Assembly: GCA_905479265.1 (NCBI GenBank)
Contig: CAJQLX010000013.1
Coordinates: forward strand, 1-64,000
Length of the DNA: 64,000 nucleotides
DNA from: an uncultured Alphaproteobacteria bacterium
GTDB taxonomy: Bacteria; Pseudomonadota; Alphaproteobacteria; UBA7985
Reading direction: 5' to 3'
The notes below the pieces were generated by a model. The model was given only the letters and a program-made list of their open reading frames with translations. It ran no database searches and was not told the origin of the DNA. The position numbers and the translations under genes were made by a program. Below are positions 19,275 through 53,444 of this stretch, one piece after another. Positions within the stretch are counted from its first letter, which is position 1; each line of letters begins with the position of its first letter.

Positions 19275-20306
19275 ATGACTGTGGCTTTCCCAACCCGCCG
19301 CGTTGGACAAACATCTCTGCGCCTGCCCGTTCTGGGCTTTGGGACGGCACCGCTTGGCGGCATGTTTCAGGCCGTTGACGGGACCGAAGGCGCCGCAACG
19401 CTCGCCCAAGCGCTCGATGCCGGCATGACCTATGTTGATACCGCACCGTTCTATGGTTTCGGCCTCTCTGAACGGCGCGTGGGCGATGGCCTGCGGGGGC
19501 AAAGCCACGTGCTGTCAACCAAGGTAGGCCGCTTGCTCGCGCCCGGCATGACCCCGGCAGCGGCGGCAATGGGCTGGCCCGAACCACTGCCGTTTCACCC
19601 GGTTTTTGACTACAGCTACGACGCCATCATGCGCTCGTTTGAAGCGTCCTTGCACAGACTGGGTTTGGAGAAAATCGACATTCTCTATGTCCACGACATC
19701 GGCGAGGTCACCCACGGCGAAAACGCGCAAAAGCACTTCCGTGAGATGGCCCAGGGCGGTTATCGGGCGCTGGATGAATTGCGGCGCGCCGGACACGTCA
19801 CAGCCATTGGCCTTGGCGTGAATGAAGCCCAAGTCTGCTTGGACGCCTTGAACGTGGGTGATTGGGACATCTTTTTGCTCGCCGGACGCTATACGCTGTT
19901 GGAACAAGACCCGCTGGACGACCTGCTCCCGCAATGCGTGGAACGCTCGATTTCGCTTGTCATCGGCGGTCCGTTCAATTCGGGCATTCTGGTAGGCGGC
20001 GACACGTGGAATTACGATGCCGCACCCGACACCGTGCGCGCCAAGGTTCGGCGGCTGGAAGCGGTCTGCGGCGAATACGGCGTTCCCCTACCCGCTGCGG
20101 CGCTGCAATTCCCACTGGCGCATGAGGCAGTGACCTCCGTCCTGCCGGGATTGCGCAACCGGCAGGAATTGGCCGATGCGCTGGCTTGGGCCAAGCATCC
20201 GATACCGCCGCAGCTTTGGCAAACGCTGAAGGACCAAGGCTTGCTGCATCCCAACGCGCCAACACCCCCTTCGTCGTCATCCCCTTACCTGAGCCCGGCC
20301 CCATGA
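19275..20306 (+). CDS. Aldo/keto reductase (L-fucose / D-threo-aldose 1-dehydrogenase-like)
   Basis: The 343-residue protein has the AKR tetrad: D55 and Y60 in DTAPFYGFG, K83 in STKVGR and H140 in YVHDIG. It resembles the bacterial L-fucose/galactose dehydrogenase and pyridoxal 4-dehydrogenase branch (GLSERRVGDGLR). These enzymes oxidise the anomeric carbon of an aldose to a lactone with NAD(P). The next gene, overlapping by ATGA, is a lactonase-type amidohydrolase, which fits such a lactone product. Confidence 0.85.
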   Translation: MTVAFPTRRVGQTSLRLPVLGFGTAPLGGMFQAVDGTEGAATLAQALDAGMTYVDTAPFYGFGLSERRVGDGLRGQSHVLSTKVGRLLAPGMTPAAAAMGWPEPLPFHPVFDYSYDAIMRSFEASLHRLGLEKIDILYVHDIGEVTHGENAQKHFREMAQGGYRALDELRRAGHVTAIGLGVNEAQVCLDALNVGDWDIFLLAGRYTLLEQDPLDDLLPQCVERSISLVIGGPFNSGILVGGDTWNYDAAPDTVRAKVRRLEAVCGEYGVPLPAAALQFPLAHEAVTSVLPGLRNRQELADALAWAKHPIPPQLWQTLKDQGLLHPNAPTPPSSSSPYLSPAP

Positions 20307-21178
20307 TTATCGACAGTCATCAGCACTTTTGGACATTGGCGCGGGGCGACTATGGCTGGATCACGGAAGACCTTGCGCCGATTTACCGTGATTTCTCCCC
20401 CCAAGACCTCCGGCCCCTCCTCGACGCTCACGGGGTCGATGCAACGATCGCCGTACAAGCCGCACCAACGTGGCCCGAAACAGAATTTTTGCTCGATATA
20501 GCCCAGCTGAATCCGTGGGTTTTGGGGGTCGTGGGATGGATGGATATCACAGCAGAAACCGCCGCTGACGCCATTCGCGGCGCAGCTGAAACCCACCCGC
20601 GCCTGCTGGGGCTTAGGCCGATGATCCAAGACATCAGCGATGATCGCTGGATGCTGCAAAACAGTCTTCGGCCCGCGATTGAAGCGATGGCGGCTTCGAA
20701 CCTGACATTTGATGCGCTGGTCCTGCCTCAGCACCTCGCACCGCTGGAAACCTTTGTGCGCGCTTACCCATCGCTGCGGGTGGTCATCGATCATGGGGCA
20801 AAGCCAGAAATTCGAAATCAGGGTTTTGAGCCTTGGGCGGGTGACATCGCTGCGGTGGCGAAGCACCCGAATGTTTGGTGCAAAATCTCCGGACTGCTCA
20901 CTGAAGCCAGCGCCGATCAAACCGCCGACGATCTCGCCCCCTACGTTCAGCACATCATCACCGTTTTTGGGCCTGAGCGCTGCCTGTGGGGCAGCGATTG
21001 GCCCGTGCTTACGCTGGCCGGCGAATACGGATCTTGGTTGCAAACCCTTCAAAGACGGACAGAGGGCTTGAGCGAGGATCAGCGTCACGGCGTGATGGGG
21101 AAGAATGCGTTAGCCGCCTATCCGCGTCTGGCCTACGGTTTAGACCAATTCACGGCACGCAAACCCGGCCCCGAATAG
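20303..21178 (+). CDS. Amidohydrolase-2 family sugar lactonase (L-fuconolactonase-like)
   Basis: The 291-residue TIM-barrel hydrolase opens with the metal motif IIDSHQHFW and contains VIDHGAKPEI, WCKISGLLTEA and the C-terminal GSDWPVL aspartate motif. This is the pattern of amidohydrolase-2 lactonases such as L-fucono- and L-rhamnono-lactonase. Translational coupling to the aldose dehydrogenase makes a two-step aldose to aldonate conversion likely. Aldonate dehydratases are encoded at 25.8-29.2 kb and a 2-keto-3-deoxy acid kinase at the window start, though not in the same operon. Confidence 0.85.
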   Translation: MIIDSHQHFWTLARGDYGWITEDLAPIYRDFSPQDLRPLLDAHGVDATIAVQAAPTWPETEFLLDIAQLNPWVLGVVGWMDITAETAADAIRGAAETHPRLLGLRPMIQDISDDRWMLQNSLRPAIEAMAASNLTFDALVLPQHLAPLETFVRAYPSLRVVIDHGAKPEIRNQGFEPWAGDIAAVAKHPNVWCKISGLLTEASADQTADDLAPYVQHIITVFGPERCLWGSDWPVLTLAGEYGSWLQTLQRRTEGLSEDQRHGVMGKNALAAYPRLAYGLDQFTARKPGPE

Positions 21179-21207: not shown

Positions 21208-22317
21208 CTAAGCCTTGGAAAACGGCAAATCACACAGCGTCGCGCCGACCGGAACCCCCTGCCGAACCACAGTAACACGGTCACCGGGCTGACAGTTGAC
21301 CGAGATCAGCGCAAACCCAATGACGCGCTCGAACTTGAACGACCAGCAGCCACAGGTCATATCCCCGACCTTTTGCCCCTCAACTTCAAGATCGTACCAC
21401 CGCACCGGACCGGGCTGGGGTTCTTCATCGTCGAGCAACAAGCCGAGTTGGTGGCGCGTTGGCCCTTCCGCCTTGATCCGGCGCAAGGCTTGAATCCCCA
21501 CCACGTCATCGGCGACGTCTAGATCCACGTAACGCTCCAACCGAACCTCAAAGGGGTTGGTGTGATCATCTGTATCACCGCCAAACGACAGCATGCCGCT
21601 TTCGATGCGCTCAACCGGGCTGGGATTGCCCGGGCCGATGCCCCAAGGCGCGCCAGCCTCGCGAAAGATGCTCCAAAGCTCATCGCCGCGTGTGCCGTCG
21701 GTCAAATAAATCTCAAACCCGCCTTGCCCCGAATAGCCTGAGCGCTGGATTTTCACCGGAATGCCGTTGATCTCCGCATCGGCAAACCAGAAAAACTTGA
21801 TGTCGCGGATCCAATCGCCAAAGACCGCTGCGACCACATCCTCTGCCATTGGCCCCTGCACCGCCAGCGGAGAGACGTCGGGTTCGTGCAGATCGACATT
21901 CATGCCCCGCTCGGCCGCAATCGCACGGCACCACATGAGCATGTCCTTGTCGGCAATCGACAGCCAGAATTTGTCCTCGGCCAGTTTCAGCACCACTGGG
22001 TCGTTAATAATCACCCCGCGATGGTCACAGCAGGCGACATACTTGCCTTGGCCAATCTTCTGGCGCGACAAATCTCGCGTACACAGCATTTGTGTAAACG
22101 CCGCCGCATCCGGCCCTTCGATGGCGACTTGGCGCTCCACCGCCACATCCCACAGGCTTACACCCTTGGTCAGGCGGTCATATTCCGCGCGGGGATGACC
22201 GTAGGAGGTTGGCATCAGCATTCGGTTGTATGGCGAAAAGGCAGCCACGCCTTCCTTTACGGTGGACTCGTAAAACGGCGAGACGCGCAGGCGGGTGTTT
22301 GGACCGATTTCAGCCAT
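21208..22317 (-). CDS. GcvT/DmdA-like tetrahydrofolate-dependent aminomethyltransferase family protein
   Basis: The 369-residue protein follows DMSP demethylase DmdA more closely than GcvT: YNRMLMPTSYGHPRAEYDRL, LWDVAVERQVAIEGPDA, DPVVLKLAEDKFWLSIADKD, EPDVSPLAVQGP, RSGYSGQGGFEIYL and ERIESGMLSFG. Family members move a one-carbon unit from an S-, N- or O-linked donor to THF. It is the last gene of the operon with a Rieske oxygenase, a CitE-like lyase and a PanB-like protein, so it may salvage a C1 unit. I do not name it dmdA: several DmdA-like paralogues lack DMSP activity. ATG 22317 has GAGGAT upstream. Confidence 0.8.
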   Translation of the reverse strand: MAEIGPNTRLRVSPFYESTVKEGVAAFSPYNRMLMPTSYGHPRAEYDRLTKGVSLWDVAVERQVAIEGPDAAAFTQMLCTRDLSRQKIGQGKYVACCDHRGVIINDPVVLKLAEDKFWLSIADKDMLMWCRAIAAERGMNVDLHEPDVSPLAVQGPMAEDVVAAVFGDWIRDIKFFWFADAEINGIPVKIQRSGYSGQGGFEIYLTDGTRGDELWSIFREAGAPWGIGPGNPSPVERIESGMLSFGGDTDDHTNPFEVRLERYVDLDVADDVVGIQALRRIKAEGPTRHQLGLLLDDEEPQPGPVRWYDLEVEGQKVGDMTCGCWSFKFERVIGFALISVNCQPGDRVTVVRQGVPVGATLCDLPFSKA

Positions 22318-22386: not shown

Positions 22387-23247
22387 TTAAACGGTTCTGA
22401 TACGATCCGCAATCGCAACAATGCGATACATATCGCGCAACACAGGCTTTTCGATCAGTTTTCCGTCGATCACCACCAAGCCCGTATCTGCCGCTTCGAA
22501 CTCAGCAATCACACGCCGCGCCCGCGCAATTTTCTCCTCCGACGGTGTGAAGACCTCGTTCAGCGCGGCGATCTGCTTGGGATGGACCGAGCCTTTGCCA
22601 GAGAACCCCAAATCACGCACTTTCTCAGCCTCGATCCGCATGCCCGCGGGGTCATCAAGGTCCAAGAACGGCACATCAACCGCGTCCAGCCCTGCGGCAG
22701 CAGCGGCATGCACCACCCGTGATCGGGCGTAGATCATGGTTTCAAAGGCGTTTACGCACCGCAACTCCGCCGCCATATCCACACCGCCAAAGAACAGCCC
22801 ATCGATCCGCGACGAGCACTTCGCAATGGCAAAAGCAGCCTCCAGCCCTTCGTTGGTTTCGATGATGACGTGCAGCCGCGTGGCGTGCCCGGCTTCGCTG
22901 AGCAGTTGATCCAGCATGACGACCTCATCCGGCGTACGCACTTTGGGCATCATGAGCGCCGGGGGCGGTGTCGCGCTGGCGAGGATGGCTTGCACGTCTT
23001 CGATACCAAAGCGCTCCCGCATGGAATTGATCCGCAAAATGCGCTCAACGCCATCGTCTGCTTGCGGCTGGGCAAACAGGGCCAGCGCCTTGGTGCGGGC
23101 CTGGGCTTTGTCTTTGGGCGCGATGCCGTCTTCGAGCTCCACACAGACCATATCCGCGCCGCTCTTCAGCGCCTTGGGGAACATGTCGGGGCGCAGTCCC
23201 GGCGTGAAGATAAAGCTGCGGCGAGAGCGTGGGTTGTTGGCAGACAT
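22387..23247 (-). CDS. HpcH/HpaI aldolase / citrate lyase beta-like (CitE) protein
   Basis: The 286-residue TIM-barrel protein shows the CitE pattern: SFIFTPGLRPDMFPKAL, VELEDGIAPKDK, metal ligands E in IIETNEGLEAA and D in FFGGVDMAAEL, and GKGSVHPKQI near the C-terminus. Family members cleave malyl-, citramalyl- or methylmalyl-CoA thioesters, or aldol-cleave free acids. In this operon it may split the carbon skeleton left after demethylation. It lies 36 bases after the Rieske gene. Confidence 0.85.
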   Translation of the reverse strand: MSANNPRSRRSFIFTPGLRPDMFPKALKSGADMVCVELEDGIAPKDKAQARTKALALFAQPQADDGVERILRINSMRERFGIEDVQAILASATPPPALMMPKVRTPDEVVMLDQLLSEAGHATRLHVIIETNEGLEAAFAIAKCSSRIDGLFFGGVDMAAELRCVNAFETMIYARSRVVHAAAAAGLDAVDVPFLDLDDPAGMRIEAEKVRDLGFSGKGSVHPKQIAALNEVFTPSEEKIARARRVIAEFEAADTGLVVIDGKLIEKPVLRDMYRIVAIADRIRTV

Positions 23248-23283: not shown

Positions 23284-24414
23284 TTATTCCAAACCACCAC
23301 CGAGCGGTGGACGCCCTTCGGCGGCGAGTTTTTTGTTCAGGATTTGCCGCACACGGATGCCGCCCTTGTCAGGGCCAAGCGTGACTTCAAGATAGTTGGT
23401 GCCGCGTGGATCCTGAGAGATCTGACGCTGCATGATTTCCAGCAAATGCTTGTCCTCGTCAAAAGCCTCGGTCACGCTGGCTTTGGTCTTGGCAATGACG
23501 TCACCGGTCAGCGATGGAACGTCAAAAGCAGCACCCCAGAAATAGTGCGTCCGGCCCCGCTGCGCTGGCGTCACGATGTGACAGCCCCGCATGATGAAAT
23601 CCGAACGACGGCCCGCATCCGGTGCGGGGTCGTGAACGTTCCAATCGGAGAACGAGATGGCCAGCGAAGGCATGGTCCCCTTCTGCACGCGCTTAACCGG
23701 CTTATCCTCTGGCAACCCCATACCCGCACAAAACAGCGGCGAGAGCGGCGCAAGGTCGAATTCCTGTTGGTAACAAAGAACCTCACCTTCCATGAAGCTA
23801 TCAGGCGCGTTCACCCAGTCGTTCTGCTTGAAGGTGTTCTTGTGCAAAAACGCGATGTGCGTGAGGTCAAAGACGTTCTCGCGGATCATCACCCAGTTCG
23901 CCGCGACTTCGTAATAGCCGTGCAGAAAGCTCCAGTCTGGATCGACCTGATAGCCCACTTCTGGCGGGTCGCAATCAATCGCCGCTGGATCCCCCATCCA
24001 AATCCACAGAAACGCGCCGGACTCGCGCACCGGATAGGCCGGAATGCGGGCGATGTTCGGCTGCATTTTCTGGGTCGGCGCTTTGGTGCACAGGCCCGTG
24101 GTGTCGAATTCCATGCCGTGATAGGGGCACACGATCTTGTCTCCGCATACCGTGCCCTCAGACAAGGGCGCCCAGCGGTGTGGACACCGATCATAGAGCG
24201 CCGCTGGTGTCCCATCTTCGAGACGATAGAGCACCACCGGCGTCTCCAAAATCCAGCGCGCCAAAGGGCGATCCTGCACCTCATCAACATGCGCCGCCGC
24301 CCACCACATGTTGCGCGGATAGTTGTCTTCGAGCATGCCGTTGGGCACCAACTGCCCTAAGCGCCGTGCCGAGCGTTCGCGCAGCACGTCATCGGTCGAA
24401 ATTTCGGTTTTCAT
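23284..24414 (-). CDS. Rieske non-haem iron oxygenase, VanA (demethylase)-type
   Basis: The 376-residue protein has the Rieske cluster motif C77-x-H79...C96-x2-H99 (CPHR...CPYHG) and the mononuclear iron triad start D183-H186-H191 in ENVFDLTHIAFLH. That spacing is characteristic of the VanA/dicamba O-demethylase group. Such enzymes oxidatively remove methyl groups or hydroxylate the substrate, using a separate ferredoxin reductase that is not encoded nearby. Its ATG overlaps the PanB-like stop (ATGA), showing tight coupling. A demethylase role fits the C1-related partners. Confidence 0.9.
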   Translation of the reverse strand: MKTEISTDDVLRERSARRLGQLVPNGMLEDNYPRNMWWAAAHVDEVQDRPLARWILETPVVLYRLEDGTPAALYDRCPHRWAPLSEGTVCGDKIVCPYHGMEFDTTGLCTKAPTQKMQPNIARIPAYPVRESGAFLWIWMGDPAAIDCDPPEVGYQVDPDWSFLHGYYEVAANWVMIRENVFDLTHIAFLHKNTFKQNDWVNAPDSFMEGEVLCYQQEFDLAPLSPLFCAGMGLPEDKPVKRVQKGTMPSLAISFSDWNVHDPAPDAGRRSDFIMRGCHIVTPAQRGRTHYFWGAAFDVPSLTGDVIAKTKASVTEAFDEDKHLLEIMQRQISQDPRGTNYLEVTLGPDKGGIRVRQILNKKLAAEGRPPLGGGLE

Positions 24415-25274
24415 GCGGGTTCCTCCGTCTTGAGCGCAGCAGCCAGTTTTGCGGCTTCTTCGGGTTTCATGGTGTAGCTGTGGTCTGCGTCAGGGAAAGC
24501 GCCGCTGCGCACATCCTCAGCATAGTCAGCAAAGGCTTTGGTCGCGATTTCGGCCATGTTCGCATAGCGCTTGGCAAACTTCGGCTTGAAGCTGTCAAAC
24601 GCGCCAATCAGATCATAACCGTTGAGCAGCTGACACGTCCCCGCTGCGCCAGCACCAATGGAAAAGGTGAAGATATCCACCGCCTCGTCAACGGCTTTTC
24701 CCACCTCATAGGGCATGGCCTCGATCTCCAACCCGATCGCGCCAGCCTGTTCGATGCAGCGGGCGTTGTCGATGATCTGCAGCGCAGCTTCCGCCGTTCG
24801 CCCCTGCATTTTGAACCCACCCAGCATGTGTACGCGATGGGGCAGCAAACCCACGTGGCTCATCACCGGTACGCCGGCATCAGCGACGGCTTTGATGATG
24901 TCGAACATCTCCCTGCCGCCTTGCAGCTTAACCGCTTCGATGCCGCCTTCTTTGATCATCCGAACGGCGTTGGTGACGGCCAAATCCGGCGTGGCGTAGG
25001 AGCCATAGGGCATGGACGCCAGCGTGAATGTTTGGGGCGCGCCGCGCCGCACGGCGCGGCAATGGTCGATCATCTGATCCACCGTTATCGCCAGCGTATT
25101 TTCATGCCCGTGCAGGGTCATCCCAAGGCTGTCGCCAATGCCGATGATGTCAATGCCCGCGCGCTCTGCCCAAGCCGCGCTCATCGCTTCACCCACCGCG
25201 ACCATCACCAAGCGCTCGCCCGCCGCCTTTTTCGCCGCAAGATCGGGGATTGTGAGTTTTGACTGAGCTGACAT
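24411..25274 (-). CDS. Divergent PanB (ketopantoate hydroxymethyltransferase) paralogue with altered metal site
   Basis: The 287-residue protein clearly has the PanB fold: IGIGDSLGMTLHGHENTL, AVRRGAP, SHVGLLPHRVHMLGGFKMQGR and FAKRYA. Compared with E. coli PanB as I recall it, D45 (here D48) and the catalytic E181 (here E185) are kept. The other two metal ligands are changed: D84 is S87 (in ASMPYG) and E114 is Q118 (in KLQGG). True PanB enzymes transfer a hydroxymethyl from 5,10-methylene-THF to ketoisovalerate. This protein heads a catabolic operon without panC, so it probably catalyses a different aldol or retro-aldol reaction. ATG 25274 follows GGAGG. Confidence 0.82.
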   Translation of the reverse strand: MSAQSKLTIPDLAAKKAAGERLVMVAVGEAMSAAWAERAGIDIIGIGDSLGMTLHGHENTLAITVDQMIDHCRAVRRGAPQTFTLASMPYGSYATPDLAVTNAVRMIKEGGIEAVKLQGGREMFDIIKAVADAGVPVMSHVGLLPHRVHMLGGFKMQGRTAEAALQIIDNARCIEQAGAIGLEIEAMPYEVGKAVDEAVDIFTFSIGAGAAGTCQLLNGYDLIGAFDSFKPKFAKRYANMAEIATKAFADYAEDVRSGAFPDADHSYTMKPEEAAKLAAALKTEEPA

Positions 25275-25296: not shown

Positions 25297-25320
25297 ATAT
25301 TGTTCCACTTGGAACGATAT
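25297..25320. promoter_or_regulatory. Palindromic operator for the MarR regulator
   Basis: ATAT-T-GTTCCA-CT-TGGAAC-G-ATAT is an almost perfect dyad in the 95-base spacer between the divergent PanB-like and MarR genes. It lies 23-46 bases upstream of the PanB-like start and about 50 upstream of marR, ideal for controlling both. MarR proteins bind dyads of this size. Confidence 0.75.
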
Positions 25321-25369: not shown

Positions 25370-25837
25370 ATGATCAGCCCCAGCGATTTTTTGGAAAAGG
25401 TCGAGTTCCGCGATGCCGCGCTGCTTTCCTTTGTCACCAGCGCGATCATTGTTCCGGCTTATGACGCGGTGAAGCGTGACTTGGGCATCACGCGCTCAGA
25501 ATACCTCTTGCTCATGGCGCTTTCGCACTACCCCGTGCTAACGGCGCAGGATGTGTCCCGGCTTAGCGGTCGGCCCCGAAACTCGATCTCTCGCGCGGTC
25601 CATCGCATGCTGGCTGTCGGTCATTTAGCGCGAGATCCCGACCCCACCGACGCCCGCCAAGCGCGCCTTTCCATCACGGAAACAGGGCGCGCTCTGCACC
25701 GGCAAATCGCCGAACGGATCCGCGTGTATCAGGAAGAGGTGCTCTCGCCCCTGACAGAGCAGGAGCGGGAAACGGTCGTTAATCTGCTGACAAAAGTCGT
25801 GGCGCAGCGGCCTTCAGCGGGTGCAGCAGAGCTCTAA
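25370..25837 (+). CDS. MarR-family transcriptional regulator
   Basis: The 155-residue protein has the MarR winged helix: a LTAQDVSRLSGRPRNSISRAVHRML recognition region and the wing DPDPTDARQARLSITETGRAL. Helices at both ends allow dimerisation. It is divergent from the PanB-Rieske-CitE-DmdA-like operon with a clear dyad between them, so it very likely regulates that operon in response to its substrate. Confidence 0.9.
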   Translation: MISPSDFLEKVEFRDAALLSFVTSAIIVPAYDAVKRDLGITRSEYLLLMALSHYPVLTAQDVSRLSGRPRNSISRAVHRMLAVGHLARDPDPTDARQARLSITETGRALHRQIAERIRVYQEEVLSPLTEQERETVVNLLTKVVAQRPSAGAAEL

Positions 25838-25845
25838 CCCCAGCA

Positions 25846-27369
25846 TCACATCACCGCGCCAACCTGCCACGGTACAAATTCGCTGTCGCCCAAACCCAGC
25901 GCTTCACTGCGCGAGGGCTTGCCCGAGGCAACGGCGAGAATTTCGTCGAGGATCTCGTCACCCTTGACGTCCAAACTCACCCCCGCGCTGAGAACGTCCC
26001 CACAATTAAGGTCCATGTCGTCAGGCATAGCGTGGAACAGCATGTCGTTGGTCGCCAGCTTGATCGTGGGTGCGGGCTTGGAGCCAAAGGCCGAACCTCG
26101 ACCCGTTGTGAAGACCACAACTTGCGCGCCCGACGCGATCTGCCCGGTAACCGAAACCGGGTCGTAGCCGGGTGAGTCCATGAAGACAAAGCCCTTGGTT
26201 CCAACCGGTTCCGCATAGCCCAGCACATCGGCCAGCGGGGTCGATCCGCCCTTGGACGCTGCACCCAGCGACTTCTCCAAAATAGTGGTCAAGCCGCCAA
26301 CTTTGTTCCCCGGTGAGGGGTTGTTGTCCATCGATGCGCCGTGGAGCGCGGTGTAGTTTTCCCACCACTTGATGCGCGCGATCAGCTTGTTGGCGACCTC
26401 TGCACTCGCCGCTCGACGAAGCAACAGTTGCTCGGCCCCATAAATCTCCGGCGTTTCAGCCAAAATCGCGGTGCCGCCCAAGCCCACCAGCTTGTCCGCC
26501 GCAACACCCAAAGCCGGGTTCGCCGTAATGCCGGAATAGCCGTCCGAGCCACCACACTGCAACGCCACCGACAGCGCCGAAGCGGGGCAAGGGGTCCGAG
26601 ACACGGCGTTTACCTCGGGCAACAGCGCGGTAATCATGGCTTTGAGCCGGTCAATGGTCGCGCGGGTTCCGCCGGTTTCCTGAATGGTCAGCCCGTGGAA
26701 CCGGTCCGCCGTTTCTGCGCCGTATAGCGTTTTCATCACCTCGACCTGCATCACCTCACAGCCCAAACCGACAAAGATCGTTGCGCCCACGTTCGGGTGA
26801 GTCGCATGTCCCCACAGCACCCGTTCGAGGTTCGCGGCCCCCTCGCCTGACGACGCCATGCCACAGCCTGTCCCGTGCGCGAAAACACACACGCCATCGA
26901 CGTTGGGGAAAGCCTCCAAAACGCCGCTCATCGTCAATTCGTGCGCCGCCTGCCGCACCACCGTCGCGGAGCAGTTGACGGTTGAACACAGGGCGATGAA
27001 GTTGCGGGTTCCAATCTGGCCGTTGGCGCGACGATAGCCCTCGAACGTGCGTTCGCTGGGCGCGGGGATCGCCGCCTGCGCCGCTGCGAGATCGACGCCA
27101 ATCTGGTAATCCTGATCGTGCTCACCGACGGTGCAGTTGTGCACATGCACGTGCTCGCCGGGGGCAATGTCGGACACGGCGTAGCCGATGATCTGGCCGA
27201 ACTTACGAATGGGGTCCGCCGCAGCAATCGCCTTGGCCGCAATCTTGTGCCCCGGCGCAACGTCGGAGGCTAAAGCCGCTCCGCCGGCAACCAAGACATC
27301 TCCCGCCTTCGCCGCCCGCACCAAAGTCGCCACATCATCAGCAGGGTTTAACAGCACAAAGGCACTCAT
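25846..27369 (-). CDS. uxaA: UxaA-family sugar-acid dehydratase (altronate dehydratase-like)
   Basis: The 507-residue protein contains an N-terminal SAF domain (about 1-90, with VLVAGGAALASDVAPGHKI and SDIAPGEHVHVHNC) followed by the large UxaA/GarD domain (GYRRANGQIGTRNFIAL, CGGSDGYSGITANPALG, SPGYDPVSVTG, CGDVLSAG). Enzymes of this group dehydrate D-altronate or D-galactarate to 2-keto-3-deoxy acids using iron; some dehydrate 6-deoxy aldonates. ATG 27369 has AAGGGGGG upstream. It follows an IlvD/Edd dehydratase after 16 bases, so two unrelated dehydratases are co-transcribed. Confidence 0.85.
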   Translation of the reverse strand: MSAFVLLNPADDVATLVRAAKAGDVLVAGGAALASDVAPGHKIAAKAIAAADPIRKFGQIIGYAVSDIAPGEHVHVHNCTVGEHDQDYQIGVDLAAAQAAIPAPSERTFEGYRRANGQIGTRNFIALCSTVNCSATVVRQAAHELTMSGVLEAFPNVDGVCVFAHGTGCGMASSGEGAANLERVLWGHATHPNVGATIFVGLGCEVMQVEVMKTLYGAETADRFHGLTIQETGGTRATIDRLKAMITALLPEVNAVSRTPCPASALSVALQCGGSDGYSGITANPALGVAADKLVGLGGTAILAETPEIYGAEQLLLRRAASAEVANKLIARIKWWENYTALHGASMDNNPSPGNKVGGLTTILEKSLGAASKGGSTPLADVLGYAEPVGTKGFVFMDSPGYDPVSVTGQIASGAQVVVFTTGRGSAFGSKPAPTIKLATNDMLFHAMPDDMDLNCGDVLSAGVSLDVKGDEILDEILAVASGKPSRSEALGLGDSEFVPWQVGAVM

Positions 27370-27385: not shown

Positions 27386-29182
27386 CTAGTGATTGTTCCG
27401 CGGTAGCGACTTGCGCGCCACATCCTGAAACGTATCCGCATCGCGCAGAATCATACCCCGGTCGAGCGGCTCGATCTGATCGCGGAACAGGGCTTGCCAA
27501 GGCGTCTGGCTGTCTGGAACAGGATAGCCGCCAGCCTCGATCAACGCCTGTTGGCGCGCGCTGAATTCTTCGTCCGTGATAAGAATGTCTGCGCTGCCCT
27601 TGTTCAAGTCGATCCGGATCCGGTCGCCGGTCTTCAAGATCGCCAATCCAGCGTTTTCTGCCGCTTCAGGTGCCGCGTTCAAGATCGACGGCGAACCGCT
27701 GGTTCCCGATTGCCGTCCGTCGCCGATGCAGGGCAAGGCTTCAACCCCTTGCTTCATCAAATAGACCGGCGGTCGCATGTTCACGACTTCAGCCGCGCCG
27801 GGATAGCCCTTTGGCCCCGCCCCGCGCATCACCAAAATCGTATTGGCGTCCAGCCCCTCCCCCGGGTCATCAATCCGCCGAAGGTACGCCTCCGGACCAT
27901 CAAAGACGCAAGCGGTTCCCTCAAACGCATTGGGATCGTCGGGGTTGTTCAGATAGGCGGCTTGGAAAGCCGGTGAGATGACGCTGGTTTTGATAATCGC
28001 ACTCTCGAACAGATTGCCTTTGAGGTTGATAAAACCCGCTTCTGCCTTCAGCGCGCGGTCCAAGGGGCGGATGACGTCGTCGTTGGTTGCCGCCCGATCG
28101 TGACAGTTATCACCGATGGTTTGACCATTGACCGTCATGGCGTCGGGATGGGGCAGAATCCCCCCTTCCAACAATCGATGAACCACCGCTGGAACGCCGC
28201 CCGCCTGATGATAGTCTTCGCCCAAATACTCCCCCGCTGGCTGCATATTCGCCAGCAGCGGGATTTTATGCCCCAGTGCTTGCCAATCGTCATTATCCAG
28301 CGGCACACCCAAGTGCCGGGCTATGGCGTTTAGGTGGATGGGCGCGTTGGTCGAACCGCCCAGCGCTGAATTCACCACCACGGCGTTCTCAAACGCTTCG
28401 CGCGTCATGATGTCGGTGGGGCGGGTATCATTCCACACCATTTCCACCGCTTTCAAACCGGTCTCATAGGCAATCTGCCCGCGCTCTCGATAGGGCGCAG
28501 GGATCGCTGCGGCCCCCGGCAACTGCATGCCCAGTGCTTCGGCCAGCGAGTTCATGGTCGACGCTGTGCCCATGGTGTTGCAGTACCCCACCGACGGGGC
28601 CGACGCGGTCGCCATTGCCATGAATTCAGCATCATCGATCTCCCCCGACGCCAGCATCTCACGGGCTTTCCAGATCAGGGTTCCAGACCCAGCGCGCTTG
28701 CCGTCATGCCAGCCATTGAGCATCGGGCCAACCGACAGCGCTATCGCCGGGATGTTCACCGTCGCCGCCGCCATCAGGCACGCGGGCGTGGTCTTGTCAC
28801 AGCCAATCATCAGCACCACACCGTCGATGGGATAGCCGTAAAGCGACTCAACCAGACCCAGGTAGGCAAGGTTTCGATCAAGCAGCGCCGTGGGCCGTCG
28901 GCCTGTTTCCTGTATCGGATGGACCGGGACTTCCAACGCCGTTCCGCCCGCAGCGGTAATGCCATCTCGCACCCGCTTGGCCAGTTCCAGATGATGGCGG
29001 TTACAGGGGCTGAGGTCTGATCCGGTTTGCGCGATCGCAATGATCGGCTTGCCAGACTGCAACTCCTGTGGCGTCAATCCAAAATTCAGGTAGCGCTCGA
29101 TATAGATTGCGGAGTTTTCCGGGTCTTTGGGATTGTTGAACCACTCACGCGAACGCAGGTCTTCTGGCTTAATCTTCGGCAT
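27386..29182 (-). CDS. IlvD/Edd-family aldonate dehydratase
   Basis: The 598-residue protein shows the family signatures: [13 protein letters not shown], the cluster cysteine region [49 protein letters not shown], and [12 protein letters not shown] with [16 protein letters not shown]. Cysteines in all three expected positions would bind the Fe-S cluster. Length and the [17 protein letters not shown] segment fit pentonate/hexonate dehydratases (arabinonate, xylonate) rather than branched-chain IlvD. The product would be a 2-keto-3-deoxy acid. ATG 29182 matches the family N-terminus. Confidence 0.88.
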
Positions 29183-29293
29183 GGATACCAACTCCCCCTT
29201 CGGTAACGCACCACGCGCGGGCCGCAGTGTCCAACGACGGCGCGTGCAAGGCTTGGATGATCGGTCATAAATCCCGAACAAGGCAAGCAGGAA

Positions 29294-30427
29294 TCACCCC
29301 GCGTCGCTGAATTCCCGCGCAACAGCCTCTGTATGCTGCCCAAGCCCTGGCACGTCCGGCGGTGTCACCGGGGCCACCCGTCCGGGCTGCAAGGGCGCAC
29401 GCAGCACTTGCCCGTCCGCAAGCCGGATCTCTCGCCGCTTCAGTGCTGGATGGTCGGCGAGATCCGGCACATCCGACAGCCGCCCAAAGGCGATCCCCGC
29501 GCCCCGCATTCGCGCTTCACAGGCCTCAAAGCTCAAACCCGCAAAGATCGGACGCATGATGTCGTCCAGCCTCGCCCGATTGTCTGACCGCGCAGGATTA
29601 TCGTGAAACAAAGGATGATCGACCAGATCAGGGCGCTCCAGCACGTCATTACACAGCGAGACCCACTCCCGCGGATTTTGGATCGACAGCAAAAAAGCAC
29701 CATCGGCACAGGAAAACGCGCCGTAGGGGTAAATCGTGGCGTGCGCCAGACCTTCGCGCCGGGGGGCTGTTCCCGTGCCTTCGTATTGCAGCAGCGGCAC
29801 GGACATCCAATCGGCCATCGTGTCGAACATCGCAATTTCCAACGCCTTACCCTTGCCCGTGATGCCCCGTTCTATCAAAGCTTCCAACACCGCCGCGTGC
29901 GCGGTCATCCCGGTCCCAATATCAGCGATGGAAACCCCGACTTTGGCACGCTCCTCCCCCGTTCCCGTCACCGCGCAAATCCCGCTTTCCGCCTGCACCA
30001 ACGCATCATAGGCCCGCATATCCGCGAAACGGCTTTGCTGGTCATAGCCAACAATCGAAAGGCTGATCAGGCGCGGATTAAGAGCGTCCAGGGCCGCTTG
30101 ATCCAAGCCCATGCGCGCCATGGCGCCGGGCACGAGGTTTTGCACCAGCACATCGGCTTTGGCGATCATCCGGCGGAGCAGCGCAAGCCCTTCTGCGCTT
30201 TTCAGGTCCAAAACCGTGCTTTCCTTGCCTGCATTCAACCACGCGAAATAGGCCGAAGTGCCCCCAGCGGCGCGGTCATAGTGGCGCGCGGTTTCACCCC
30301 CGGCGCGCTCAACCTTGATCACCCGCGCCCCGCCTTGGACCAGCCGAAACGTACAAAGAGGCGCGGCAACCGCCTGTTCAATCGCAACGACGAGCAGACC
30401 GCTCAACGGACCTTTGGACTGTGACAT
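29294..30427 (-). CDS. CaiB/BaiF family (class III) CoA-transferase
   Basis: The 377-residue protein begins LSGLLVVAIEQAVAAPLCTFRLVQGGARVIKVER, the CaiB N-terminal pattern. It has LDLKSAEGLALLRRMIAKADVLVQN and the AYDALVQAESGICAVTGT region holding the catalytic aspartate. It moves CoA between carboxylic acids. It overlaps the acyl-CoA dehydrogenase gene by ATGA, so the two should work on the same acid: activation, then oxidation. Confidence 0.88.
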   Translation of the reverse strand: MSQSKGPLSGLLVVAIEQAVAAPLCTFRLVQGGARVIKVERAGGETARHYDRAAGGTSAYFAWLNAGKESTVLDLKSAEGLALLRRMIAKADVLVQNLVPGAMARMGLDQAALDALNPRLISLSIVGYDQQSRFADMRAYDALVQAESGICAVTGTGEERAKVGVSIADIGTGMTAHAAVLEALIERGITGKGKALEIAMFDTMADWMSVPLLQYEGTGTAPRREGLAHATIYPYGAFSCADGAFLLSIQNPREWVSLCNDVLERPDLVDHPLFHDNPARSDNRARLDDIMRPIFAGLSFEACEARMRGAGIAFGRLSDVPDLADHPALKRREIRLADGQVLRAPLQPGRVAPVTPPDVPGLGQHTEAVAREFSDAG

Positions 30428-31584
30428 CAGAACGACCTCGGCAAGCCAAGCACATGCTCGGACAAATAAGACAGGATCAGGTTGGTCGAGATCGGCGCGA
30501 CTTGGTACAGCCGCGTTTCACGGAATTTACGCTCAATGTCGTATTCTTCGGCAAAACCAAAACCGCCATGGGTTTGAATGGCGACGTTTGCCGCTTCAAA
30601 GGATGCATCGGCGGCGAGCATCTTGGCCATATTCGCCTCCGCACCCGGGTTCCCGCCGGCTTCATACAGGCGCACCGCTTCGGCGACCATCAGCTCCGCC
30701 GCGCGCATGTTGGCGTAGGCTTTGGCGATGGGAAACTGCACGCCCTGATTTTGACCAATGGCCCGTCCAAAGACATGGCGACCTTTGGCATAGTCAACCG
30801 AGCGCTCGATAAACCACTTCGCATCACCCACACATTCCGCCGCGATCAGGATCCGCTCCGCATTCATCCCGGTTAGGATATAGCGAAAGCCCTTCCCCTC
30901 CTCACCGATCAGGTTTTCCGCCGGAACCCGCAGATTGTCGAAAAACACTTCGGTGGTTGCGTGGTTCATCATGGTCTGGATCGGGCGAATGGTCATCGCG
31001 CCAGAGGCAAGGGCCGCTTTCATATCCAGCCAAATCACCGATAGCCCTTGGGTTTTCTTCATGCCGTCACCCAGCGGGCTGGTCCGCGCAAGCAGCAGCA
31101 TGAGGTCTGAATGCTCCGCTCGGCTGGTCCAGATCTTCTGCCCGTTGATGACGTATTCATCGCCCTCGCGCCGTGCTGTCGTCTTGAGCGCGCCCGTGTC
31201 CGTCCCCGATGTGGGTTCGGTCACGCCAAAAGCCTGCAACCGCAAGGCGCCAGAAGCAATTTTGGGCAGCAGGGTCCGTCGCTGCGCTTCGTTGCCGTGA
31301 CGGAGCAACGTACCCATGGTGTACATTTGGGCATGACACGCGCCGCCGTTGCAGCCTTGGCGCTGGATCTCCTCCAAAATCGCCGCAGCCGCCCCCAGCG
31401 GTAATCCCGCCCCGCCAAACTCTTCAGGGATCAACGCCGACAGCCAACCAGCATCCGTCAGCGCTTGCACAAAGTCGGTGGGATAGCCCCGCTCCCGGTC
31501 TAACGCGCGCCAGTAGGCACCGGGAAAGTCGGCGCAAAGCCGAGCCACGGCGTCGCGAATATCGTCGTAAGACGTTTGGGTCAC
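30427..31584 (-). CDS. Acyl-CoA dehydrogenase
   Basis: The 385-residue protein has canonical ACAD motifs: EEFGGAGLPLGAAAAILEEI, FGVTEPTSGTDTG (FAD site), VINGQKIWTSRAEHSDLMLLL, and the C-terminal QTHGGFGFAEEYDIERKFRETRLYQVAPISTNL. It introduces a double bond into an acyl-CoA with FAD and passes electrons to ETF. GTG 31584 has AGGAGG ten bases upstream. It is paired with a CoA-transferase and sits downstream of the GntR regulator on the same strand, after an 88-base gap. Confidence 0.9.
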   Translation of the reverse strand: MTQTSYDDIRDAVARLCADFPGAYWRALDRERGYPTDFVQALTDAGWLSALIPEEFGGAGLPLGAAAAILEEIQRQGCNGGACHAQMYTMGTLLRHGNEAQRRTLLPKIASGALRLQAFGVTEPTSGTDTGALKTTARREGDEYVINGQKIWTSRAEHSDLMLLLARTSPLGDGMKKTQGLSVIWLDMKAALASGAMTIRPIQTMMNHATTEVFFDNLRVPAENLIGEEGKGFRYILTGMNAERILIAAECVGDAKWFIERSVDYAKGRHVFGRAIGQNQGVQFPIAKAYANMRAAELMVAEAVRLYEAGGNPGAEANMAKMLAADASFEAANVAIQTHGGFGFAEEYDIERKFRETRLYQVAPISTNLILSYLSEHVLGLPRSF

Positions 31585-38032: not shown

Positions 38033-39673
38033 ATGGCTCGAAAGAATATCCTGTACATCATGTGCGATCAGTTGCGGTTCGACTATTTGGGCTGTACGGG
38101 ACATCCGACCATCAAAACCCCAAACATCGATGCGCTGGCCAAACGCGGCGTTACGTTCGCAAACACCTATTGCCAATCCCCCATCTGTGGGCCTTCGCGG
38201 ATGAGCGCCTACACGGGACGCTATGTCTCCAGCCACGGTTCAGCCTCCAACTTCACCCCCTTGCGCATTGGGGAGAAGAACATGGGGCATCACCTCAACC
38301 CCTTGGGTGTGAAAACAGTGCTGGTGGGCAAAACGCATGTTGTGCCCGATCGCGAAGGGTTGGAACGGCTGGGCATTGATCCTGAAGGTGAGGTTGCGCT
38401 GCACCATGCTCAGGGCGGTTTCGAGGTTTATGAGCGTGATGATGGGATCCACCCTGACTCCATGGTTAAGCCCAATGTGGCCTATAACCAGTATCTCAAG
38501 TCGCAAGGATACACCGAAGACGCCAACCCCTGGCACTGGGCGGCGAACTCCGTTGAAACTGAGGATGGCGAGGTTCGTTCGGGCTTCTTCAACGATCGGG
38601 TGGACCTGCCAGCGCGGGTGACGGACGAGCAATCCGAGACGCCTTACATGACCCGCCGAGCGATGGAATTCCTCGACGAAGACGACGGGGAAACGCCGTG
38701 GTTGCTGCACTTGTCCTACATCAAACCACACTGGCCCTACGTTGCGCCGGCCCCCTATCACAACATGTACTCGGCCAAGGACGTGGTTCCAGCGGTTCGC
38801 GCGGACAGCGAATTTGACGATCCAAATCCACTGGCGAAACTGTTCATGGAACGCGTGGCCGGTGAAACCTTCAGCCGCGACGAAGCGCGCGAGACGGTCA
38901 TTCCGGTGTATATGGGCCTGATCACCCAGATCGACGATCAACTCGGCGTGCTGTTCGATTTCATGGAAAAGCGTGGATTGATGGAAGACACGATGATCGT
39001 GTTCACCTCAGACCATGGTGACTACTTGGGCGATCACTGGATGGGCGACAAAGACTACTTCCACGCCCCCGCCGTGCAAATCCCACTGATCATCGCCGAC
39101 CCAAGCGCCAGCGCGAACCCGACACGCGGGACGGTTGACGCGTCTTTGGTGGAGTTGATCGACCTGCTGCCAACGTTTATCGAATTCAATGGCGGGACGC
39201 CGCTTTACAACATTCTCGATGGCCGCTCGCTGATGCCCAAGCTGCGCGGGGAAAGCGTCGATTGGCGCGATGTGGCGGTGAGCGAGTACGACTATTCCTG
39301 CCAAGTGTTCCGGCCGGAAACAGGCAGGGTCGCACTGGATTGCCGAACCTATATGGTGGCTTCGACAGAGTGGAAATACATCTACGCGCCGGGCTACCCA
39401 CCCGTACTGTTCGACCTGAAGAACGACCCTGATGAGCTGATCGACCTTGGCCGCAGTGCAGCGCATGAAGGTGTGCGGCAAGAGATGTTTGATAAGCTGG
39501 CGCAGTGGTCCCTGCAGTACCGTCAGCGGGAAACGTGGAGCGAAGAACGCAACGACCAAATGACGGGGGTTGAGGAGCAGCTTGGGGTGTTGATTGGGTA
39601 TTGGGATGAAGCCAGCGCCGAAGGCAAAGATCCGAAAATCCTGCCCAAACGAGGCCCTGCGCCGTCCGAGTAG
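38033..39673 (+). CDS. Sulfatase-superfamily hydrolase, phosphonate monoester hydrolase (PMH)-like
   Basis: The 546-residue cytoplasmic protein (no signal peptide) opens NILYIMCDQLRFDYLG with a metal aspartate and carries the formylglycine motif C52-G-P-S-R (ICGPSRMSAYTGR). The SDHGDYLGDH metal motif and the C-terminal half (YIKPHWPYVAPAPYH, GLITQIDDQLG) follow Rhizobium/Burkholderia PMH closely as remembered. PMHs are promiscuous toward phosphonate and phosphate diesters and sulfate monoesters. ATG 38033 with GGGGA upstream is preferred over ATG 38021. It is divergent from the MBL hydrolase and 287 bases before the TAXI transporter. Confidence 0.87.
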   Translation: MARKNILYIMCDQLRFDYLGCTGHPTIKTPNIDALAKRGVTFANTYCQSPICGPSRMSAYTGRYVSSHGSASNFTPLRIGEKNMGHHLNPLGVKTVLVGKTHVVPDREGLERLGIDPEGEVALHHAQGGFEVYERDDGIHPDSMVKPNVAYNQYLKSQGYTEDANPWHWAANSVETEDGEVRSGFFNDRVDLPARVTDEQSETPYMTRRAMEFLDEDDGETPWLLHLSYIKPHWPYVAPAPYHNMYSAKDVVPAVRADSEFDDPNPLAKLFMERVAGETFSRDEARETVIPVYMGLITQIDDQLGVLFDFMEKRGLMEDTMIVFTSDHGDYLGDHWMGDKDYFHAPAVQIPLIIADPSASANPTRGTVDASLVELIDLLPTFIEFNGGTPLYNILDGRSLMPKLRGESVDWRDVAVSEYDYSCQVFRPETGRVALDCRTYMVASTEWKYIYAPGYPPVLFDLKNDPDELIDLGRSAAHEGVRQEMFDKLAQWSLQYRQRETWSEERNDQMTGVEEQLGVLIGYWDEASAEGKDPKILPKRGPAPSE

Positions 39674-43563: not shown

Positions 43564-45147
43564 ATGACAGAGCGCCCGAGCTATATTCTGTTCATCACGG
43601 ATCAGCAGAGGGCCGACTCCTTGGGCTGCACAGGTCATCCGACGGTGCGCACGCCCAACATCGATACCATCGCCCAACGCGGCGTGACGTTTGAGCGATT
43701 CTATGTCGCGTCACCGGTGTGCATGCCGAACCGAGCCAGTCTGATGACCTGTCGGATGCCAACCAGTCATGGAGTGCGCTCGTTGGGGATCCCGCTGGCC
43801 ACCGATCACGTCACGTTTGTCGAGGTGATGGCGGCGGCGGGGTATGACACCGCCTTGATCGGCAAGAGCCACCTGCAGAACGTCACACAGTTCCCAACAC
43901 AGTTTGAGCGCAAAACCCACCGCGAAGGCTTTGTCGCGCCACCGCCAGAGCTGGCCGACGCCATTCGTTCAGACCTCGACGCACCGCACTATCAGTACGA
44001 GCAGCGCCGATACTGGATGCAGGAAAACCCCAGCGTCCCCTCCCCGTTTTACGGTTTTGACCACTACGACAGCGTTCTGCGCCACGGCACGAATACGGGC
44101 GGGCACTATGAAGAATGGCTGAAGCAGGTTGCGCCAGAGGTTTTGGCCTTGCGCGGACGCGATACGCAGCTGGACCACGACTATATCGTCCCCCAAGCCG
44201 TTCGCACCCGCGTGCCAGAGGAATACTACTCCACCACCTACATCGCCAACCAAGCCTGCGCGTGGCTCGAAGAGCGCAAGGACAGCGACAAGCCGTTTTT
44301 CCTGATGGTCTCTTTCCCCGATCCGCATCACCCGTTTAATCCCCCGGGAAAGTACTGGGACATGTATCGGCCCGAGGACATGGAAATCCCGCGCGCCTAC
44401 ACCGACCCATCGTGGAACCCGCCAGACTATGTGTTGCAGGCCGAAAGCGAGCGTGCTGCTGATCCAACATTGGGGCAAATGGCGGGCTATTCCCTTGCCG
44501 TCACCGCCCGCGAAGCGCAGGAAGCGCGCGCCCTGACATGCGGGATGATTACCATGGTCGATGACGCCATTGGCCGGGTGCAACAGGCTGCGAACACGAC
44601 GGAAACCGGGGCCGAAGCGGTTCAGATTTTTACCTCCGATCACGGCGACCATCTGGGCGACCATCGCTTGCTGTTCAAAGGCACCGAGCAGTACGACACC
44701 ATCACGCGTGTCCCCTTCATCTGGGCCGATCCCAAGGGCGCACAGAACCAGCGCAGTGCAGAGCTCGCGCAAACGCTCGATATCGGCACCACGATCATGG
44801 AGCACGCCCGGCTCGAAGCGCCAGACGGCATGCAGGGCGAACGGCTGTCCGTTGCCGGTGGATCAGGGCGCGAGGCTGCGTTTATCCAATACGAAACCCA
44901 GCGCCCGCAGCATGCCTTTGGCAAGGATCCACGGGCGCACACCATCGTCCACGACCGCTGGCGGCTGACGCTCTACCGCGGCAAAGCGCAGAACGAGTTG
45001 TTCGATCTGCGGGATGATCCTGATGAGATGGTGAATTTGTGGGATGATGCGGGCCATCGGGACGTGCGTGCCGCACTGGTTGAGCGACTCGCCGAGCTGG
45101 AGATCGAGGTCATCGACAGCGTCCCGTTCCCCACCGCCGAAGCCTGA
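43564..45147 (+). CDS. Sulfatase family protein (formylglycine type)
   Basis: The 527-residue protein begins YILFITDQQRADSLGCTGHPT and has the formylglycine motif C53-M-P-N-R (VCMPNRASLMTCR). DPHHPFNPPGKYW and SDHGDHLGDHRLL metal motifs follow, with a C-terminal FDLRDDPDEMVNLWD. There is no signal peptide, so substrates must be imported, consistent with the TRAP permease ending 32 bases upstream. It differs enough from the PMH-like enzyme at 38 kb to suggest a second ester specificity. An anaerobic or aerobic sulfatase-maturase is needed in trans; none is in the window. Confidence 0.88.
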   Translation: MTERPSYILFITDQQRADSLGCTGHPTVRTPNIDTIAQRGVTFERFYVASPVCMPNRASLMTCRMPTSHGVRSLGIPLATDHVTFVEVMAAAGYDTALIGKSHLQNVTQFPTQFERKTHREGFVAPPPELADAIRSDLDAPHYQYEQRRYWMQENPSVPSPFYGFDHYDSVLRHGTNTGGHYEEWLKQVAPEVLALRGRDTQLDHDYIVPQAVRTRVPEEYYSTTYIANQACAWLEERKDSDKPFFLMVSFPDPHHPFNPPGKYWDMYRPEDMEIPRAYTDPSWNPPDYVLQAESERAADPTLGQMAGYSLAVTAREAQEARALTCGMITMVDDAIGRVQQAANTTETGAEAVQIFTSDHGDHLGDHRLLFKGTEQYDTITRVPFIWADPKGAQNQRSAELAQTLDIGTTIMEHARLEAPDGMQGERLSVAGGSGREAAFIQYETQRPQHAFGKDPRAHTIVHDRWRLTLYRGKAQNELFDLRDDPDEMVNLWDDAGHRDVRAALVERLAELEIEVIDSVPFPTAEA

Positions 45148-52613: not shown

Positions 52614-53444
52614 TCAGTACTTTCCCTTTTGCTCGGATCCGGCATAGAGAATATCGGCCAGTTTTTGATTGGCGTCGATCCGCAAAGCAACGGCAGCATC
52701 GGTCATCGCTTCTTGGACCCGAGGGGCTTCCAGATGATGCTTGGGTCCATCCGTGCCGCGCGCACGCTGGACGTACATTTCACCCAAAACCTGCTCAACC
52801 GACGGCGCGATATAGCTTTGCAGCGCAAAACCAATGCGGCGCTCGTTTGAGATATTCGGGCCGGACCCGTGAACGATGCGAGGGTGGTGAAGCGACAGCT
52901 GACCGGGCTTGAGCGGCAAAGATACCGCCTTGCTCTCGTCAATGCCCTGAACCTCCTGCCCTCGGGTGAGCAGGTTGTCTTCGCCGAACGTATCAACATG
53001 ATCGCGCAGCGGATCAATGTGGGAGCCGGGGATCATGCGCATGCACCCGTTTTCTTCGGTCACATTGCTCACCGCCAACCATCCAGTCACCCAATCGTGC
53101 GGCTCCATTCCGGCGTAGCGGGCGTCTTGGTGCCAGCTGATGAAACCACCGCTGTTCGGCTCTTTGATAAACAAGGTCGAACCCGCCGCCAAAATATGCG
53201 CGCCAATCACGTCTTCCACAGCATCGAGGATGCGGCTGTCGTGAACAATACGATCCAACACGGGCAAAGCAAGATGCCCGTTGTTCCGCCCTGCGCCATC
53301 CAGCGCATGGGGCCAGCGCGCCTCAGCGTCTTCAATCTCAGCCCGAATTTCCGCGATTTCGTCCGCAGAGAAGATATCGATCGGCGCAACATAGCCGTCG
53401 CGGGCGTAGGTTTCCTGCTGTGCAACAGTCAGACGTTTGGGCAT
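52614..53444 (-). CDS. PhyH-family Fe(II)/2-oxoglutarate dioxygenase, PhnY/TmpA-like
   Basis: The 276-residue protein has the iron facial triad H105-x-D107 (SWHQDARY) and H192 (RIVHGSGPN), with R203 in ERRIGFALQ for the 2-oxoglutarate carboxylate. This architecture matches phytanoyl-CoA-type dioxygenases, including PhnY, which hydroxylates 2-aminoethylphosphonate. The neighbouring phnM supports a phosphonate substrate. Ectoine or other small-molecule hydroxylases share the fold and remain possible. GAGGAG precedes the ATG. Confidence 0.82.
   Translation of the reverse strand: MPKRLTVAQQETYARDGYVAPIDIFSADEIAEIRAEIEDAEARWPHALDGAGRNNGHLALPVLDRIVHDSRILDAVEDVIGAHILAAGSTLFIKEPNSGGFISWHQDARYAGMEPHDWVTGWLAVSNVTEENGCMRMIPGSHIDPLRDHVDTFGEDNLLTRGQEVQGIDESKAVSLPLKPGQLSLHHPRIVHGSGPNISNERRIGFALQSYIAPSVEQVLGEMYVQRARGTDGPKHHLEAPRVQEAMTDAAVALRIDANQKLADILYAGSEQKGKY

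Follow-up and report, generated by a model that had tools for sequence, protein, structure and literature searches.

The window analysed here is a stretch of 64,000 nucleotides from the genome of an uncultured alphaproteobacterium (contig CAJQLX010000013.1), and its minus strand carries a four-gene operon in the order panB', Rieske oxygenase, CitE-like lyase and DmdA-like GcvT protein. The first gene, panB' (24411..25274), is an ORF of 287 aa for a paralogue with the fold of PanB, and belongs to the P1 clade described below. It overlaps by 4 bp with the gene for a Rieske non-haem iron oxygenase (23284..24414, minus strand; PF00355 and PF19112), which has both Rieske and VanA_C domains, as in the VanA/DMO type, and whose closest solved structure is dicamba O-demethylase (3gb4, match over residues 32-361). 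A CitE/HpcH-like C-C lyase resembling RipC follows (22387..23247, minus strand; PF03328; structure match 3qll), which scored 257 bits against NF038242, under the cut-off of 375. The last gene (21208..22317, minus strand; PF01571) encodes a DmdA-like GcvT-family protein of the THF methyl acceptor type, with DmdA (3tfh) as its closest solved structure and a score of 359.8 bits against the DMSP demethylase model NF009133, under the cut-off of 410. The original prediction described panB' as heading a catabolic operon that lacks panC and lying beside a DmdA-like THF enzyme. The catabolic operon and the absence of panC nearby were borne out, with panC located on another contig (C23), while the DmdA-like enzyme is indeed part of the operon but is the third gene downstream of panB' rather than its immediate neighbor. 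A sigma-70 promoter scan across the operon found no site.

Further catabolic genes on the minus strand encode UxaA-like (25846-27369) and IlvD-like (27386-29188) proteins, CaiB (29294-30427), and an acyl-CoA dehydrogenase (30427-31584). In a sister genome (L045/L036), their orthologues are contiguous with panB', Rieske, and gcvT, and in the window's genus these genes and panB' possibly belong to the same pathway. A PhyH-family dioxygenase gene of the window (52614..53444, minus strand) also has its orthologue inside the panB' cluster of that sister genome (tblastn, 88%). Genes for an AKR and a fuconolactonase-like amidohydrolase (19275-21178) are kept beside the panB' operon in L044/L045. Sulfatase-like genes (38036-39673 and 43564-45147) lie on either side of a TRAP-type transporter in the window, and this group had no consistent linkage to panB' in other genomes.

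A MarR regulator gene (25370..25837, plus strand; PF12802) is divergent from panB', and the intergenic region between them holds a palindrome, the predicted MarR operator core GTTCCACTTGGAAC (25302..25315); the candidate MarR-binding sequence at panB' is TTGTTCCANNTGGAACAA. Divergent MarR genes occur at many P1 loci, and a palindrome close to TTGTTCCA-NN-TGGAACAA precedes panB' in all 15 MarR-linked intergenic regions (15/15). The core has a single exact copy in the window's own genome, and the palindrome was present in 13 of 18 other genomes, with one copy each except for one genome with two, whereas a reversed-pattern control gave 0 in most genomes. The palindromes with listed coordinates precede panB', or gcvT in loci that begin with gcvT. 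Given this position and a palindrome that is usually unique per genome, the regulator fits a dedicated local one that would control the panB' operon via the predicted operator. Control by MarR, anticipated from the window alone, is thus supported over many genomes by a conserved, though predicted, palindromic operator.

In profile searches, PanB' matched PF02548 over the full length of the protein (294 bits) and was above the cut-off of both NCBIfam PanB models, NF001452 and TIGR00222 (251.7 bits, cut-off 207.55). Its AlphaFold2 model is a TIM barrel (pLDDT 91.4), for which the best fold matches were PanB structures (3vav, 1m3u, and 1oy0), followed by the ICL/PEP mutase superfamily. PanB' therefore shares the fold of PanB (EC 2.1.2.11), with about 36-40% identity over its length. 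The alignment to E. coli PanB (1m3u), used as the reference for residue numbering, placed D45, S46, K112, H136, and the catalytic E181, all common to both proteins, at D48, S49, K116, H140, and E185 of PanB'. Of the PanB Mg site, formed by D45 and D84 with E114, only D45 is kept, and the site is incomplete in PanB': D84 is replaced by S87 (codon 25014..25016, minus strand) and E114 by Q118 (24921..24923, minus strand), exactly as originally predicted along with the retention of D45 and E181. An alignment of 105 family members to 50 canonical PanBs additionally revealed a gained carboxylate, E183 (24726..24728, minus strand; V179 in E. coli), and a gained histidine, H146 (24837..24839, minus strand; Q142 in E. 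coli). In the model, E183 is located two residues before the catalytic E185, both on strand 181-185, so their side chains should face the same direction. With two acidic ligands lost and one acid and one histidine gained, the metal site is remodelled at the level of sequence, as had been proposed, and the new Glu183 and His146 are invariant.

These replacements are fixed across the family. Position 114 is Q in 105/105 PanB' members and E in 50/50 canonical PanBs; position 84 is S, A, or C in 105/105 and D in 50/50; position 179 is E in 105/105 and V or L in 50/50; and position 142 is H in 105/105 and Q in 50/50. The pocket position V214, which is V in 50/50 canonical PanBs, is N or L in PanB'. 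The 105-sequence set combines a homologue scan with one genome per species (80 loci) and other genomes, and some entries are the same gene fetched twice. Since position 114 is always Q and position 84 always S, A, or C in this set, against E and D in every canonical PanB, the swaps, as read from the alignment, are neither chance nor sequencing error. K116, E185, S49, and D48 were present in all aligned members, H140 was missing in one, and residue 29 was E or D throughout. All members tested were above the NCBIfam PanB cut-off.

The family is a widespread variant of a known fold family that extends beyond one genome, with hosts among alpha-, beta-, and gammaproteobacteria, Acidimicrobiia, and others. 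A quick tree, in which the root was not fixed, resolved two clades, P1 (including the window; aLRT 96) and P2 (aLRT 100; C at position 84), both separate from canonical PanB. Orthologues of the window's panB' had dN of 0.08 versus dS of 1.2-1.4, indicating purifying selection. The copy in Limibaculum sp. NKW23 (L054:10001-10834) has an in-frame TAA stop codon. One record titled Oceanobacillus sp. HTM 045 (L071) contains a P1 operon laid out like that of Pelagimonas, for which mislabelling or contamination is suspected. Three beta-proteobacterial loci (L090, L094, and L097) have P1b and P2 copies about 10 kb apart or less. A plasmid search added just one locus, in Methylobacterium nodulans, where a P2-like copy is accompanied by DUF6166 and a gene of the sterol desaturase family.

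The search for pantothenate genes elsewhere in the window's own genome recovered, besides panC, a second PanB with intact ligands (D, D, E, E; C47:6479-7240, locus L034), a short protein of 253 aa with four residues deleted and a long branch in the tree. Among 35 other PanB' genomes, 21 had a sequence-confirmed canonical panB, all 21 with panC and often with the two genes adjacent by coordinates, while both panC and canonical-clade panB were absent from 11, one of which (G062) has a divergent PanB relative with intact ligands. Many of the genomes that carry PanB' in a catabolic operon thus hold the canonical copy and panC elsewhere. Given the 21 genomes with separate canonical genes and the 11 with neither, a role of PanB' in pantothenate synthesis is unlikely, so the rejection of pantothenate synthesis in the original prediction is now supported over many genomes. 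The finding of no other panB in a prototroph, which would have argued the opposite, was not made in those 21 genomes. However, six MAGs (G001, G003, G008, and G081-G083) had panC and PanB' and no canonical panB was found in them; in these, PanB' could still serve as PanB. Two of these (G001 and G003) are from the window's own genus, and PF02548 gave a single match in each. The assemblies of G001, G003, and G008 are 72-84% complete, and it is possible but unproved that canonical panB is absent from the six owing to missing sequence. That PanB' is a ketopantoate hydroxymethyltransferase still making pantothenate would agree with these MAGs and with its scores above the TIGR00222 and NF001452 cut-offs; the lost metal ligands, the separate panB and panC in 21 genomes, the 11 genomes lacking panC, and a catabolic operon with its own predicted MarR operator make it extremely improbable.

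Neighborhoods in other genomes, where ORFs were called by a heuristic finder and counts are therefore approximate, supported the proposed C1 setting, with demethylation-type neighbors of panB' over many genomes. A Rieske gene directly follows panB' in 29 of 48 P1 loci, with the 4-bp overlap in 19, and GcvT/DmdA-like genes lie within 6 kb in 25/48, as do CitE in 10 and PhyH in 8 of the 48. Neighbors at other loci included PhyH, TauD, MTTB, CmuA-like/corrinoid proteins, and DmdA, and a relative's DmdA copy (L067) scored 466.8 bits, above the DMSP demethylase cut-off (410). The beta-proteobacterial subgroup has an adjoining PhyH gene and TRAP transporters. At P2 loci the neighbors are GntR, DUF6166, TRAP, and FA_hydroxylase-like, and some of these loci encode corrinoid/URO-D proteins or proteins that we take to be CmuA-like from their domain layout. 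The binding proteins of TRAP systems close to P1, P1b, and P2 copies were similar to lactate- and keto-acid-binding TRAP proteins, and a GlcD-like oxidase gene is close to panB' in three loci. The theme common to these loci is methyl-group removal.

Based on the rebuilt active site and the methyl-removing neighbors, PanB' probably aids methylated-compound breakdown. Our favored reading, to which we assign a probability of a little under one half (about 0.48), is that PanB' was neofunctionalised for aerobic catabolism of methylated compounds via C1/enolate chemistry, not pantothenate synthesis. An oxygenase or methyltransferase would strip the methyl group, as formaldehyde, a hydroxymethyl group, or methyl-THF; PanB' may then apply PanB-like enolate/C1 chemistry to a 2-oxo-acid-like intermediate and cleave or relay the one-carbon (hydroxymethyl) unit, in a C1 aldol/retro-aldol or hydroxymethyl transfer step, and the CitE-like lyase would then deal with the rest of the carbon skeleton. 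Acid-base catalysis could be provided by E183, E185, and H140, and metal binding would be weak, relocated, or absent. The retained D45, S46, and K112 and the type of TRAP transporter point to a 2-oxo or 2-hydroxy acid substrate, and the partner enzymes of PanB' point to a C1 unit; together, these arguments favor the C1 aldol/retro-aldol or hydroxymethyl-transfer step. As described, PanB belongs to the class II aldolases and requires a metal (PMC4814558). It accepts free formaldehyde (PMC7610986), and its reaction can also proceed in reverse, a retro-aldol activity that EDTA is used to halt (PMC10127515). Against the C1 reading, PanB' has lost two ligands of this required metal, and its partners differ among loci (Rieske, PhyH, or corrinoid), which would also fit an action on the carbon skeleton in place of C1. 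A quite unlikely variant is that PanB' is a metal-independent hydroxymethyl transferase, moving C1 from a demethylation intermediate or formaldehyde to THF or a 2-oxo acid, which would avoid free formaldehyde and serve at least three unrelated oxygenase types.

Two substrates were considered and dropped. A DMSP-type substrate (DMSHB or similar) was prompted by the DmdA-like protein and by SBP56/methanethiol-oxidase-like neighbors; SBP56 was near panB' in two loci only (L063 and L072), and the DmdA-like protein of the window scores under the model cut-off. A methylated sugar acid was prompted by the IlvD, UxaA, lactonase, and AKR genes, whose linkage is limited to the window's genus.

The next fold matches of PanB' suggest that it could instead be a lyase, isomerase, or hydrolase of the PEP mutase/isocitrate lyase type, acting without C1 chemistry on a demethylated 2-oxo or 2-hydroxy acid. 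The retention of D45, S46, and K112 along with a pocket changed from V214 to N or L, and the CitE-like lyase within the operon, are consistent with this possibility. However, the superfamily, which includes methylisocitrate lyase and 2,3-dimethylmalate lyase, shares the TIM barrel with PanB' at ~15% identity, its acidic metal site is largely lost in PanB', and the acidic metal/catalytic residues it uses are those missing here; moreover, C1-removing enzymes were linked to panB' more strongly than any one skeleton-degrading enzyme. We regard this alternative as rather unlikely. Similarly doubtful is a relocated metal site, composed of D48 and E183 and perhaps H146 or E/D29, that would leave PanB' a class II aldolase of new specificity. 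In its favor, two carboxylates were lost and one was gained, invariant and on the strand of the catalytic E185, and E or D occupies residue 29 in all aligned members. Yet a third PanB-like class (O3), which has lost K112, D84, E114, and mostly D45, retains E179 as well as E181 and H136; the presence of E179 therefore does not imply a metal-binding role. The relocated-metal proposal overlaps with the favored C1/enolate reading, from which it differs in the role of the metal. With panB' and the Rieske gene overlapping translationally in 19 loci, and with metal ligands lost, PanB' could also serve the oxygenase complex as an accessory or non-catalytic component, but this is very improbable given that all aligned members conserve K116, E185, S49, and D48 and all except one conserve H140, that new invariant polar residues arose in PanB', and that the partner oxygenase family differs between clades.

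The partner genes of PanB' resemble oxidative O-/N-demethylation modules, such as those of dicamba O-demethylase, VanA, NdmA, and rhizopine mocDEF, with a Rieske VanA_C protein in the window and MocD/MocE-like proteins at the O3 class; in the literature searched, no paper describing a PanB-like partner in such modules was found. The GcvT-fold gene is likewise similar to DmdA, with the below-cut-off score given above for the window copy. The PanB' family was not described in any paper that our searches returned on a PanB-Rieske-aminomethyltransferase operon, a PanB paralogue, or links to homarine or rhizopine. Annotation pipelines would label this family as a vitamin B5 (pantothenate) enzyme despite its active site and setting, and predictions of vitamin B5 prototrophy can be wrong as a result, especially for MAGs that carry PanB' without canonical panB or panC. 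PanB' further suggests that methylated-compound breakdown includes a step not yet described, and represents a natural test of class II aldolase function after metal-ligand loss.

The O3 class has surroundings of its own. At 7 of the 11 loci inspected, the O3 gene was adjacent to or near a MocD-like FA_desaturase gene, and Rieske ferredoxin genes were found at several; mocDEF have a part in rhizopine catabolism (PMC10107442). O3-type members (L042:9254-10042, L155-L157, and L162-L166) had MocD-like FA_desaturase, Rieske ferredoxin, or TauD neighbors, and IolB-like proteins were also encoded in two O3-type contexts (L173 and L176).
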